From assembly GCF_001989615.1 (NCBI RefSeq), contig NZ_CP019067.1, forward strand, positions 1,612,001-1,676,000: DNA of 64,000 bases, read 5' to 3'. The first letter of the stretch is position 1. Each line of letters starts with the position of its first letter. The notes under the pieces were generated by a model that saw nothing but the letters and a program-made list of their open reading frames with translations, did no database searches and was not told the DNA's origin. Shown here piece by piece: positions 6,757 through 58,252 of the stretch. The DNA comes from Halorientalis sp. IM1011 (lineage in GTDB: Archaea > Halobacteriota > Halobacteria > Halobacteriales > Haloarculaceae). The translations under genes and the position numbers were made by a program.

Positions 6757-6884
6757 GCATCCGCCGAGCGCGGAGCGCGAGGCGGTTCAACGCGAGCGGC
6801 TTCGCCGCTCGCGCCTTTTTCGCCCACGTTTTTCAAGGAGGGGTTCGCGCCGAGCGCGAACCCGACGCAGAAAAAGGTGATTTA
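6757..6884. repeat. Three-hairpin palindromic intergenic element, copy E1
   Basis: Read on the plus strand: linker GCATCCGC (6757-6764), hairpin 1 (CCGCC...GGCGG, 6761-6785), linker GCGGTTCA (6782-6789), hairpin 2 (10-bp perfect stem 6791-6813, loop TTC), linker CCTTTTTCGCCCACGTTTTT (6814-6833), hairpin 3 (10-bp stem, 6841-6863), linker GAAAAAGGTG (6870-6879). The outer CCTTTTTC and GAAAAAGG can also pair. The element ends exactly at the stop codon of the minus-strand gene 6882-7505. A second copy with the same linkers and different stems is at 58126-58252 (inverted), and a diverged one is at 29152-29311. Confidence 0.85.
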
Positions 6885-7505
6885 GCAAACGGGTTTCGGG
6901 TTCACACCCAGGTCTTCGAGGGTGTCGAAGTAGTCGTCGTAGGCGGCCTGAACGGTGCCGACGGCGGCGTCGTGGGCCAGCTCCTCGTCGTCCGAGGAGT
7001 CACACACGTCGACGAGGACGTCGGGGGCGTCGTCGACGAGCGATTCGACGGTGCCGCGCACGTCGCGGAAGGTGCTGGCGGTCCCCGGCGAGGCCTGGCC
7101 GACGAAGAAGCCGACGGCCTGGCCGATCTTGTTATCGACGACCAGCGCCCACCCGAGGACGCCGGCGACGCGCTCGGGATCGGTATCGAGGCCCTGCAGA
7201 TACTCGGCGAGCGGCGACGGGTCGCCGGGTTCGTGATCGTCGAGTTCGCCGGCGACGGTGCCGTACTGCTCGCCGGCCAGATCGGCGGCGTCGGCGAGGA
7301 GGTCGGCGGCGGCCCCGTCGGCGTCGTCGGCCCAGTCCTCGAAGATCGAGTCGGCGTGGTAGAAGACGTCGGCGACGGCCGCGAGGACGGCGTCCTCCTC
7401 CATCTCGCCCTCGGTGTCGGCGTACAGCGACTTCGAGGAGCCGAGTCGGGAGAGTTCGGTCTGCTGTTCCTGGCGGATGCCGTCGAGGAAGTCTGCCGCG
7501 TTCAT
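6882..7505 (-). CDS. Rubrerythrin-like / ferritin-like family protein (putative)
   Basis: A 207-residue, very acidic, mostly helical protein (MNAADFLDGIRQEQQTELSRLGSSKSLYA start). The pattern LSRLGSSKxLYA...EGEMEEDAVLAAVAD...HADSIFEDWA resembles haloarchaeal proteins annotated as rubrerythrin-like or antitermination-like; I recall the family but cannot verify it. The full set of ExxH iron ligands of true rubrerythrin is not evident, so metal binding is uncertain. ATG 7505 is chosen because the longer upstream reading is a shadow of the divergent gene at 7623. Its 3' end runs into repeat element E1, which supplies the stop codon TAA. Confidence 0.65.
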   Translation of the reverse strand: MNAADFLDGIRQEQQTELSRLGSSKSLYADTEGEMEEDAVLAAVADVFYHADSIFEDWADDADGAAADLLADAADLAGEQYGTVAGELDDHEPGDPSPLAEYLQGLDTDPERVAGVLGWALVVDNKIGQAVGFFVGQASPGTASTFRDVRGTVESLVDDAPDVLVDVCDSSDDEELAHDAAVGTVQAAYDDYFDTLEDLGVNPKPVC

Positions 7506-7622
7506 GGCCGCCAATTCGACGGGTGGCCGCTTGTAAGCATCGACACTGGCAGCGTGACACCTCGATACTCTCACGCGCCGTCCCGAAGGTTCACTTCGGT
7601 GTCGTGAGTAGCCACCGAGGAG

Positions 7623-8876
7623 ATGGCTGTGCCACCCGTCGAGTCGCTGCCGACGCTCGTCCTCCGACTGGGAATCGCCGTCGGCGTCGGGGCCCTGATC
7701 GGCCTGGAGCGCGAGCAGAGTGAGTCGGGCGGGACCTTCGCCGGCAGTCGCACATTCCCCCTGTTCGCCCTCTACGGGGCGCTCGTCGGCGCGTTCTACC
7801 CGGACGCGCTGCCCATCGCCATCGCCGCCATCGTCGTGCCGCTGACCGTCGCGTACGTGGCCAAGGTATGGATCGAGCGGGACGTCGGCCTCACCACGCT
7901 GACGGCGGCGCTGGTGACCGTCCTGCTGGGTGCGCTGGCCACCCACTCCCCGGAGGGTGCCGTCGTCACCATCGTCGTCGGCGGACTGGTCACCGCCTTG
8001 CTCTCGGTGAAAGGGGACCTCCACCGGTTCGCGGACCGCATCGACGACGCCGAACAGCGCGCGATGGTGAAGTTCGTCCTCGTCGTGTTCGTCGTCCTCC
8101 CGGTCCTCCCGGATCGTGAACTCGACGCCCTGTTCGGCCTCAACCCCCGGTTCGTCTGGCTGATGGTCGTGTTCGTTACCGGCCTCAGCTTCGTCGCGTA
8201 CGTGCTGAGCCGCGTCGTCGGGACCGAACGGGGCATCGCGCTCACCGGCATCCTCGGCGGATTCGTCTCCTCGACGGCGACGACGGTCTCGATGGCCGAG
8301 CAAACCCGCGACTCGCCGGGCCTCTACCAGCTATGTGCCTTCTCGACGGTCGTCGCCGCCGTGGTGATGTTCCCGCGTGCGCTGGTGGAGGTCGCTGTCG
8401 TCAACCCCGCGCTCCTGCCGTCCGTCGCCGTCCCGCTGGGCGCGATGACGGCCGTCGGGGCGGTCGTCGCCGTCGTGGTCTACTGGCGTTCGGCCGTCGA
8501 GACGACCGTCGACGCCGACATCGAGAACCCGTTCCAGTTGCGGACGGCACTCTTCTTCGGGGCGCTGTTCGCCGCCGTCCTGCTGGTCTCTGACTACGCG
8601 AACGCGTGGCTTGGGACCTCCGGAATCTACGCGACGGCGTTCGTCTCCGGGCTGGCCGACGTGGACGCGATGACGCTCACCCTGAGCAAACTCGCCGCCG
8701 AGGGCACGGTCGAACCCGGAGTCGCCACGACCGGCATCGTCATCGCCGCCTCCGCGAACACGCTCGTCAAGGCCGGCCTCGCCTGGATCATCGGCACGCG
8801 CCAACTCGGGAAGCTCGTCACCGCCGTCCTCGGCGTCGTCGCCGCCGTCGGCCTCGGCATCGCCGTTCTCCTGTGA
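7623..8876 (+). CDS. MgtC/SapB plus DUF4010 membrane protein
   Basis: A 417-residue integral membrane protein with about 12 hydrophobic segments. The N-terminal third carries the MgtC/SapB signature (LRLGIAVGVGALIGLEREQ, then G.RTFPLFALYGAL). The remainder matches the DUF4010 arrangement (GGFVSSTATTVSMAEQ, SGLADVDAMTLTLSKLA, ANTLVKAGLAW). Proteins of this architecture sit in the cytoplasmic membrane; MgtC relatives are tied to Mg2+ homeostasis or ATP synthase control, but the role of the DUF4010 form is not established. Its ATG is 117 bases from the divergent gene at 7505. The sequence beyond the stop is a repeat-rich intergenic block. Confidence 0.88.
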   Translation: MAVPPVESLPTLVLRLGIAVGVGALIGLEREQSESGGTFAGSRTFPLFALYGALVGAFYPDALPIAIAAIVVPLTVAYVAKVWIERDVGLTTLTAALVTVLLGALATHSPEGAVVTIVVGGLVTALLSVKGDLHRFADRIDDAEQRAMVKFVLVVFVVLPVLPDRELDALFGLNPRFVWLMVVFVTGLSFVAYVLSRVVGTERGIALTGILGGFVSSTATTVSMAEQTRDSPGLYQLCAFSTVVAAVVMFPRALVEVAVVNPALLPSVAVPLGAMTAVGAVVAVVVYWRSAVETTVDADIENPFQLRTALFFGALFAAVLLVSDYANAWLGTSGIYATAFVSGLADVDAMTLTLSKLAAEGTVEPGVATTGIVIAASANTLVKAGLAWIIGTRQLGKLVTAVLGVVAAVGLGIAVLL

Positions 8877-57722: not shown

Positions 57723-58064
57723 ATGCCGATTAGCATCGACGAGTTCGACGAGTTCGATCCGGGCGACCGGACGGTAACCAACGCCGAGCGAGTGCTTCGG
57801 TTTCTCGTCCGGAACCGCGAGCAGGCGTTCAAAGCGGCCGAGGTCGCCGACCGGACCGGCGTCGACGAGAACTCGATCCACCCCGTTCTGAACCGGCTCG
57901 AAGAGCGTGATCTGGTCCGGCACAAAGAACCGTACTGGGCGATCGGCGACCTCGACCGCGTTCGGAACGCGACCGTCTTCCAGTCGACCGCGGCGTTTCT
58001 CGACGAGGAACTCGGGACGGAGAGCCGCGAGGAGTGGCTCGACGCCGCCGAGGAAGAGCCGTGA
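57723..58064 (+). CDS. Winged-helix (MarR-like) regulator, antitoxin-like
   Basis: A 113-residue protein with a winged HTH at about residues 10-80 (RTVTNAERVLRFLVRNREQAFKAAEVADRTGVDENSIHPVLNRLEERDLVRHKEPYWAI). A C-terminal helix follows (TVFQSTAAFLDEELGTESREEWLDAAEEEP). This layout is the one I know from haloarchaeal MarR-type proteins encoded just upstream of PemK-like toxins. Its TGA overlaps a GTG (GTGA) that opens a PemK-like reading frame. The box TTTTTAAG (57687-57694) gives a start near GTG 57714 or ATG 57723. The gene appears intact. Confidence 0.75.
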   Translation: MPISIDEFDEFDPGDRTVTNAERVLRFLVRNREQAFKAAEVADRTGVDENSIHPVLNRLEERDLVRHKEPYWAIGDLDRVRNATVFQSTAAFLDEELGTESREEWLDAAEEEP

Positions 58065-58198
58065 GTGGGACGCCCGATTTCGCCGAGTTACGACGGGGAC
58101 ACGTCGTACTCGCCCCGGACCCCTTCAAATCCACCTTTTTCCCGCTCGGGTGGCCTACGGCCACCACTCGCGGCAAAAACGTGGGCGAAAAAGGCTGA
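58061..58198 (+). pseudogene. PemK/MazF-like toxin, truncated by repeat element E3
   Basis: GTG 58061 overlaps the upstream stop. The reading MSGTPDFAELRRGHVVLAP then DPFK resembles the N-terminus of haloarchaeal PemK-like growth inhibitors, where an RGDVVLxxDPF strand pair opens the toxin fold. After about 24 codons the frame enters the palindromic element and ends at TGA 58196-58198, losing the catalytic and RNA-binding parts. It would be inactive, leaving the regulator as an orphan. The element junction is at about 58126-58135 (CAAATCCACC). Confidence 0.65.
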
Positions 58199-58252
58199 AG
58201 CCTCACTTCGTTCGGCTTCAGTGAACCGCGCTCGCTGCGCTCGCGCGGATGC
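58126..58252. repeat. Three-hairpin palindromic element, copy E3 (inverted)
   Basis: Read on the minus strand: GCATCCGC (58252-58245), hairpin 1, GCGGTTCA (58229-58222), hairpin 2 (CTGAAGCC/GGCTTCAG, 58195-58221), CCTTTTTCGCCCACGTTTTT (58194-58175), hairpin 3 (GGTGGCC/GGCCACC, 58149-58165), GAAAAAGGTGGATTTG (58141-58126). All linkers match E1 in order and near-identical spacing, while the three stems have different sequences. It sits in the 3' part of the PemK-like gene. Confidence 0.85.

Follow-up and report, generated by a model that had tools for sequence, protein, structure and literature searches.

What sort of element carries the same short linkers, in the same order, at two sites of a chromosome and yet surrounds them with unrelated hairpin stems that still pair? 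This question was raised by E1 and E3, two copies found in inverted orientation within a 64,000-nucleotide stretch of a Halorientalis chromosome (hereafter the window; Table 1), in which the 20-base linker that they share has 2 exact matches versus 0 expected in shuffled sequences. Both copies were recovered where an initial annotation had placed them, with four linkers in the order that it had described. One border had to be moved: E1 had been extended to 6884, but E1 proper stops at GGTG 6879, and positions 6882-6884 are the stop codon of a neighbor on the minus strand. In the 5′-to-3′ direction, the element consists of an optional module A (GCATCCGC-hairpin-GCGGTTCA), hairpin 2, the linker TTTTTCGC, and hairpin 3.

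Table 1. Coordinates of E1, E3, and the adjoining genes (positions are those of the window unless preceded by C1)
Feature	Positions	Strand	Basis or remark
Analyzed window, Halorientalis chromosome	C1:1612001-1676000		genome size 3.78 Mb
E1, whole element: module A + hairpin 2 + T-tract + hairpin 3	6757..6879	+	sequence; R1 match C1:1618784-1618880
E1 module A: GCATCCGC-hairpin-GCGGTTCA, foot CCGC/GCGG	6757..6789	+	sequence
E1 hairpin 2: CGCGAGCGGC / GCCGCTCGCG	6791..6813	+	sequence; family pairing test
20-base linker CCTTTTTCGCCCACGTTTTT in E1, exact	6814-6833	+	
E1 free T-tract TTTTTC, putative transcription stop	6816..6821	+	unpaired in folds; Haloferax volcanii stop motif
E1 hairpin 3: foot CCACGTTTTT/AAAAAGGTG, internal GAG.GG/CCCGA motif, inner stem GGTTCGCGC/GCGCGAACC	6824..6879	+	folds, covariation
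ORF with neighbor gene ending at E1 (..GVNPKPVC*; stop 6882-6884; true start inside ORF)	6882..8303	-	
Gene remnant ending ..RGHVVLAPDPFK, cut by E3	57907..58130; ORF continues into E3 to 58224	+	
E3, whole element	58131..58252	-	sequence; R1 match C1:1670131-1670223
E3 hairpin 3: foot CCACGTTTTT/AAAAAGGTGG, inner stem GGTGGCC/GGCCACC	58131..58184	-	sequence, folds
20-base linker CCTTTTTCGCCCACGTTTTT in E3, exact	58194-58175	-	
E3 free T-tract TTTTTC	58187..58192	-	as for E1
E3 hairpin 2: CTGAAGCC / GGCTTCAG	58195..58221	-	sequence
E3 module A: GCATCCGC-hairpin-GCGGTTC	58223..58252	-	sequence

The resemblance between E1 and E3 goes far beyond chance and extends to a large family: the linker occurs 24 times in the genome at up to 3 mismatches, and its reversed pattern occurs 0 times. 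The exact 18-mer TTTTTCGCCCACGTTTTT was present in 8/8 genomes of the genus Halorientalis, at 7 to 29 copies per genome, and in 72 of the 391 genomes of the class, nearly all of them Haloarculaceae; the reversed 18-mer gave 0 matches across all 391. R1, a covariance model, detects 51 copies in the genome containing the window and 34 to 67 copies in each of six genomes of the genus, and some other families were also positive, with fewer copies. Rfam covariance models applied at the gathering score returned 0 matches within the window, and nothing relevant to the linker letters or to haloarchaeal repeat families was found in the open-licence literature searched. Two copies from the genome containing the window, L008 (C1:11157) and L019 (C1:3372887), are far apart and have identical surroundings, which suggests a larger duplicated region.

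The linkers had been described as single-stranded, which is correct for TTTTTCGC but not for the second half of the 20-base linker. The latter pairs with the GAAAAAGGTG linker and is part of the foot of hairpin 3 (CCACGTTTTT/AAAAAGGTGG). In minimum-energy folds, T2 paired with the A-run in 108/110 cases; T1, in the first linker half, was considered as the partner of the A-run instead (CCTTTTTC/GAAAAAGG) and was discarded, being used in 1/110 folds only. The foot covaries between subtypes (CCAC/GTGG, GCAC/GTGC, CGAC/GTCG, and CTAA/TTAG), and rarer linkers are accompanied by matching feet (CGCGCACG..GGTGC, CACGCACG..CGTGC, CACCGACG..GGTCG, and ATACTAAA..GTTAG), which confirms that the second linker half is paired. 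Mean foot complementarity reached 1.77, compared with a mean of 0.31 and a maximum of 1.17 in 2000 permutations. The other stems behave as initially claimed, since hairpin 2 differs between E1 and E3 and is self-pairing in each, as it is in many copies of the family. Next to the T-tract, hairpin 2 forms 8/8 pairs in 83/180 copies versus 2/180 with swapped arms, and the inner stem of hairpin 3 is 91% paired versus 54% after arms are swapped between copies, with all four Watson-Crick pairs being used. An RNAalifold consensus on a MAFFT alignment recovered only 13 pairs, mainly in the invariant foot, because hairpin lengths vary, and covariation was for this reason tested through the arm-swap and permutation controls instead.

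Hairpin 3 also contains a conserved GAG.GG/CCCGA step, folds with a mean z of -4.4, and has its greater stability on the sense strand in 150/156 copies under DNA parameters and in 148/156 under RNA parameters. The tips of hairpin 2 match GA-NN-GNA-NN-GA in 57/156 windows versus 2 shuffled ones. According to the work of Yoshizawa (1997) as cited in PMC6479982, GNA triloops are known for very stable DNA minihairpins; the structure may therefore be of importance in the DNA itself as well. Variations on this architecture were observed at several loci. Upstream of the core, loci L011, L016, L100, L124, and L260 have a further hairpin module that recurs (..CGTTCGTTCCCTGCGGTCACTC.. CGAGGACACCG), and compound hairpins are nested within hairpin 3 (..CCATGCGAACGGGC..GCCCGTGAGCAGA..). 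Module A is also combined with other linkers in the genome under study, where module A (GCATCCG-hairpin-CGGTTC) and the sister linkers TTTTTATACTAAATTTTT, TTTTTCCCCACGTTTTT, and TTTTTCCCCAAGTTTTT make up related modular gene-end elements at loci L213, L216, L220, L228, L232, L237, and L239.

To place the copies relative to genes, GC by codon phase was used to assign the strand of each gene. The left gene reads toward the element in 98 copies and in the opposite direction in 23; among the 92 that could be classified as pairs, neighbors are convergent in 40, compared with approximately 16% at random positions, and the left gene reads away in 21. For a genuine element, the initial annotation had predicted that covariation would be significant and that gene 3′ ends would hold many copies, and both were found. 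A T stretch followed by C lies downstream of the stop codon, with TTTTTC present in the core of every copy by construction, and CCACCTTTTTC, read from the opposite side, offers the convergent gene a T-tract of its own. Intergenic stop sites of Haloferax volcanii likewise have a T stretch as their motif, transcription stopping at C, and 503 sites are preceded by hairpins (PMC7237163). Given the stop motif, the hairpin, and the gene-end position, a terminator is the natural reading, and the element is predicted from its sequence to end transcription.

Both window copies had been placed exactly at the 3′ end of a gene, which is only partly accurate. E1 is two bases from the stop codon of its neighbor, but its orientation is that of the minority of the family: it is antisense, between two minus-strand genes, which counts against a terminator at this site. 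E3 adjoins a gene reading toward it, but this gene is a truncated remnant, presumably PemK/MazF-like as judged by eye from its sequence. The remnant breaks off after ..RGHVVLAPDPFK, beyond which it runs only into E3; its 3′ end was thus made by the junction, which falls exactly at GGTGG within this unrelated gene. At locus L269 of genome G001 the gene is longer and continues ..PDDEATRPWVIVNNERHPFDG.. / ..PWVIVNNERHPFDG... On its other side, E3 is preceded by a small gene ending ..WILSLFFEGLQER*.

Orthologous copies and tandem units with near-identical flanks carry different stems. Among genomes G000 to G006, the site orthologous to E1 holds the element in G000, G004 (degenerate), and G005, whereas no element was seen there in G001, G002, G003, and G006; every stem is different among the genomes that carry it. 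Loci L018 and L257 (G001) have a common right flank up to the base after GGTGG, and all of their stems differ. Across six genomes, neither hairpin was shared in 59/74 pairs with homologous flanks. At unrelated sites, hairpin 3 was shared in 34/908 pairs within genomes and in 56/4162 pairs between genomes; within genomes, hairpin 2 was shared in 8/908 such pairs and both hairpins in 1/908. Tandem units show the same for each hairpin in turn. In L331 (hisH), hairpin 3 is identical and the gene end matches at 49/50 positions, and hairpin 2 differs, with three pairs changed on both sides; in L320 (argF), units 2 and 3 match at 50/50 positions of the gene end and 34/34 of hairpin 2 and have a different hairpin 3. 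Stems are therefore replaced faster than their flanks, each independently of the other. A single template-switching event is able to make or mend a stem (PMC8794818). The stems were probably rewritten by template switching or conversion between hairpins, via the short conserved joints.

A second feature of the family is a direct repeat of the upstream flank, which follows 67/189 elements and starts 0 to 14 nt after them (at 0 in 25 cases). Random pairings of upstream and downstream flanks gave such a repeat in 1/129. The 66 distinct cases are 27 to 152 nt long (median, 56) with a median identity of 96%, 11 being identical. In 58/66, the repeat derives from a long left open reading frame (ORF) in the same direction, of which it reproduces the 3′ end, usually including the stop codon; from their translations, we take the genes concerned to include argF, hisH, and pheT. 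These duplications of the upstream gene end are polar, with the foot of hairpin 3 as their starting point. Their polarity and variable length led us to reject a plain target-site duplication. The majority of downstream copies extend to the stop codon or its vicinity and not cleanly to a hairpin foot. Those at L010, L043, L076, L077, L091, L103, and L158 include hairpin 2 and end at the left foot of hairpin 3, TTTTTCGCC(CAC); in an automated scan of 67 downstream copies, 15 had the hairpin and T-run only and 48 had neither. At hisH, L184 (without hairpin 3) and L188 (hairpin 3 plus gene-end copy) form a near before/after pair. Another subtype of the element, with the linker TTTTTG[GC]TCCAGCTTTTT and variants of it, occurs at the same gene end at argF loci L166, L169, L171, and L176, and is likewise accompanied by gene-end copies in L166 and L176.

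Differences between gene ends and their copies are distributed 24/19/90 over codon positions 1, 2, and 3, with 86 synonymous versus 37 nonsynonymous codons. These differences cannot all stem from the decay of a plain gene-end copy, as 68% fall at position 3 compared with a rough estimate of ~46% for a lower copy that decayed beside an upper one under selection (p ~4e-7). The excess at position 3 indicates that most of the divergence accumulated when both copies still had a coding function, and hence between alleles. As judged from this pattern, the downstream copy is a formerly coding, displaced gene end. Some copies end in other complete C termini: the L166 gene ends ..LAER* and its copy ..LRERA*, compared with ..LAERA* in the sister L162, and the C termini at L300 are ..GEQA*/..SEQG*/..GEQA*. 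The left borders in argF differ among genera, pointing to recurrent events.

A polymerase that stalls at hairpin 3 and returns could produce this arrangement. Coming from the right, the polymerase would meet hairpin 3 of the sense strand, on which it is more stable, and stall there. It could then bypass the hairpin or jump to another allele, copy part of the gene end, and return to the foot, giving A-X-E-X′-B, in which X′ would be the displaced gene end, devoid of hairpin 3 and with its border fixed at GGTGG. Such a stall-and-return event would account for the fixed junction, the variable length, the polarity, and the strand asymmetry. A simple polymerase slip within one genome does not give the codon bias, for which diverged alleles must have recombined. 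The synonymous differences would be accounted for if the polymerase returned to a homeologous chromosome, haloarchaea being polyploid and able to exchange DNA. Overall, these elements constitute a haloarchaeal family of modular 3′-end structures that are most likely terminators, with hairpin 3 probably serving as a template-switch or recombination breakpoint.

Other explanations were weighed against this one. Chance similarity of GC-rich hairpins has the abundance of GC-rich palindromes in haloarchaeal intergenic DNA in its favor, but an exact 18-mer shared by so many genomes and never found reversed, together with the arm-swap and permutation controls, makes it scarcely credible, and it was discarded. 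The options initially listed were a 3′-end RNA structure, a terminator module, and a nonautonomous mobile unit, of which a 3′-end structure or terminator fits best and the mobile unit fits poorly. A REPIN- or MITE-like element, bounded by imperfect terminal inverted repeats (CCAC[G/C]TTTTT), mobilized in trans, and producing long variable target duplications, would be consistent with the dispersal over 7 to 29 mostly nonorthologous sites per genus genome, with presence and absence at the orthologous E1 site, with the direct repeats bordering the element, and with identical hairpin 3 modules at unrelated sites of one genome. We nevertheless regard it as unlikely. MITEs have terminal inverted repeats and a fixed-length duplication; the foot repeat here matches at 9/10 positions, but the duplications vary from 27 to 152 nt, are missing in about two-thirds of the copies, and derive nearly always from the gene on the same side. 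The element is not copied as a whole, as shown by the near absence of pairs sharing hairpins 2 and 3 together. No parental autonomous element was seen among the loci examined, and neither the core nor module A lies near any of the five Y1 transposase loci examined, out of 6 matches to PF01797 in the genome. An IS200/IS605 origin, suggested by TTCAC next to module A, was dropped because nothing was found at these transposase loci. The viral contigs searched contained a single exact match, without the rest of the element, which does not point to a virus-borne repeat.

Integrative elements, such as e14 in icd, displace gene 3′ ends, supplying a new end and leaving the old one downstream. By analogy, a cassette made of the element and its own copy of a gene 3′ end could insert at that gene and push the resident end downstream. 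Such a cassette would account for downstream copies that are intact, in frame, formerly coding, and different at synonymous sites, and for the other C termini encoded at L166 and L300. However, the haloarchaeal unit measures only ~120 to 200 bp, no integrase was identified, the borders are variable, with many left borders within argF alone, and the 11/66 identical pairs fit local duplication, leaving this explanation quite improbable. At about the same low level, or marginally below it, we place an mRNA 3′-end element with another role (stability, processing, or protein binding), in which the T-tract alone would terminate. The conserved GAG.GG/CCCGA motif and the sense-strand stability bias are compatible with such a role, and the hairpin plus T-tract exceeds what Haloferax terminators need; conversely, termination is favored by the conserved TTTTTC directly after hairpin 2 and by the surplus of convergent sites. 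Because haloarchaeal termination needs only a T stretch, the elaborate hairpin 3 is not explained by termination alone.

Among known systems, the closest are the REPINs, and the element belongs to the interspersed palindromic repeat/terminator kind. Like REPINs/REP-BIME of Pseudomonas and enterobacteria (PMC3116915, PMC3733652), it is short, extragenic, and multicopy, has conserved ends around a variable spacer that pairs through compensatory changes, and occurs in tandem clusters that include flanking sequence. Unlike them, it lacks a symmetric REP doublet, has no RAYT neighbor that we could find, and is not moved as a unit; it has instead an asymmetric T-tract and foot, a gene-end position, and a polar duplication of the gene 3′ end. 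The T-stretch terminators of Haloferax volcanii (PMC7237163) resemble it in placing an intergenic T stretch before a C at gene ends, frequently downstream of a hairpin. They are not reported as a repeat family, and the element adds fixed joints, a second, foot-paired hairpin, and replaceable stems. In hairpins maintained by template switching (PMC8794818; quasipalindrome correction), multibase compensatory stem changes are likewise expected in single events, whereas here stems are replaced in a dispersed family, linked to gene-end duplication, through a mechanism that we infer.

A bolder and rather doubtful reading is that of a self-rewriting repeat, the stems of which would be exchanged between copies, as interchangeable modules, by recombination at joints of 5 to 18 nt; it would act as a programmed breakpoint that exchanges gene 3′ ends with the alleles of other lineages without a dedicated integrase, leaving the displaced coding ends behind. 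Evolutionary work on structured nucleic acids has yet to settle how the two arms of a stem change together, and tandem units with identical neighboring sequence and different stems capture such a change as it happens, in archaea that can be cultured. At core genes (argF, pheT, and hisH), the gene-end copies preserve a fossil record of replaced alleles, tied to one structural breakpoint. Finally, the family would give haloarchaea a describable class of structured terminators that current annotation has missed.
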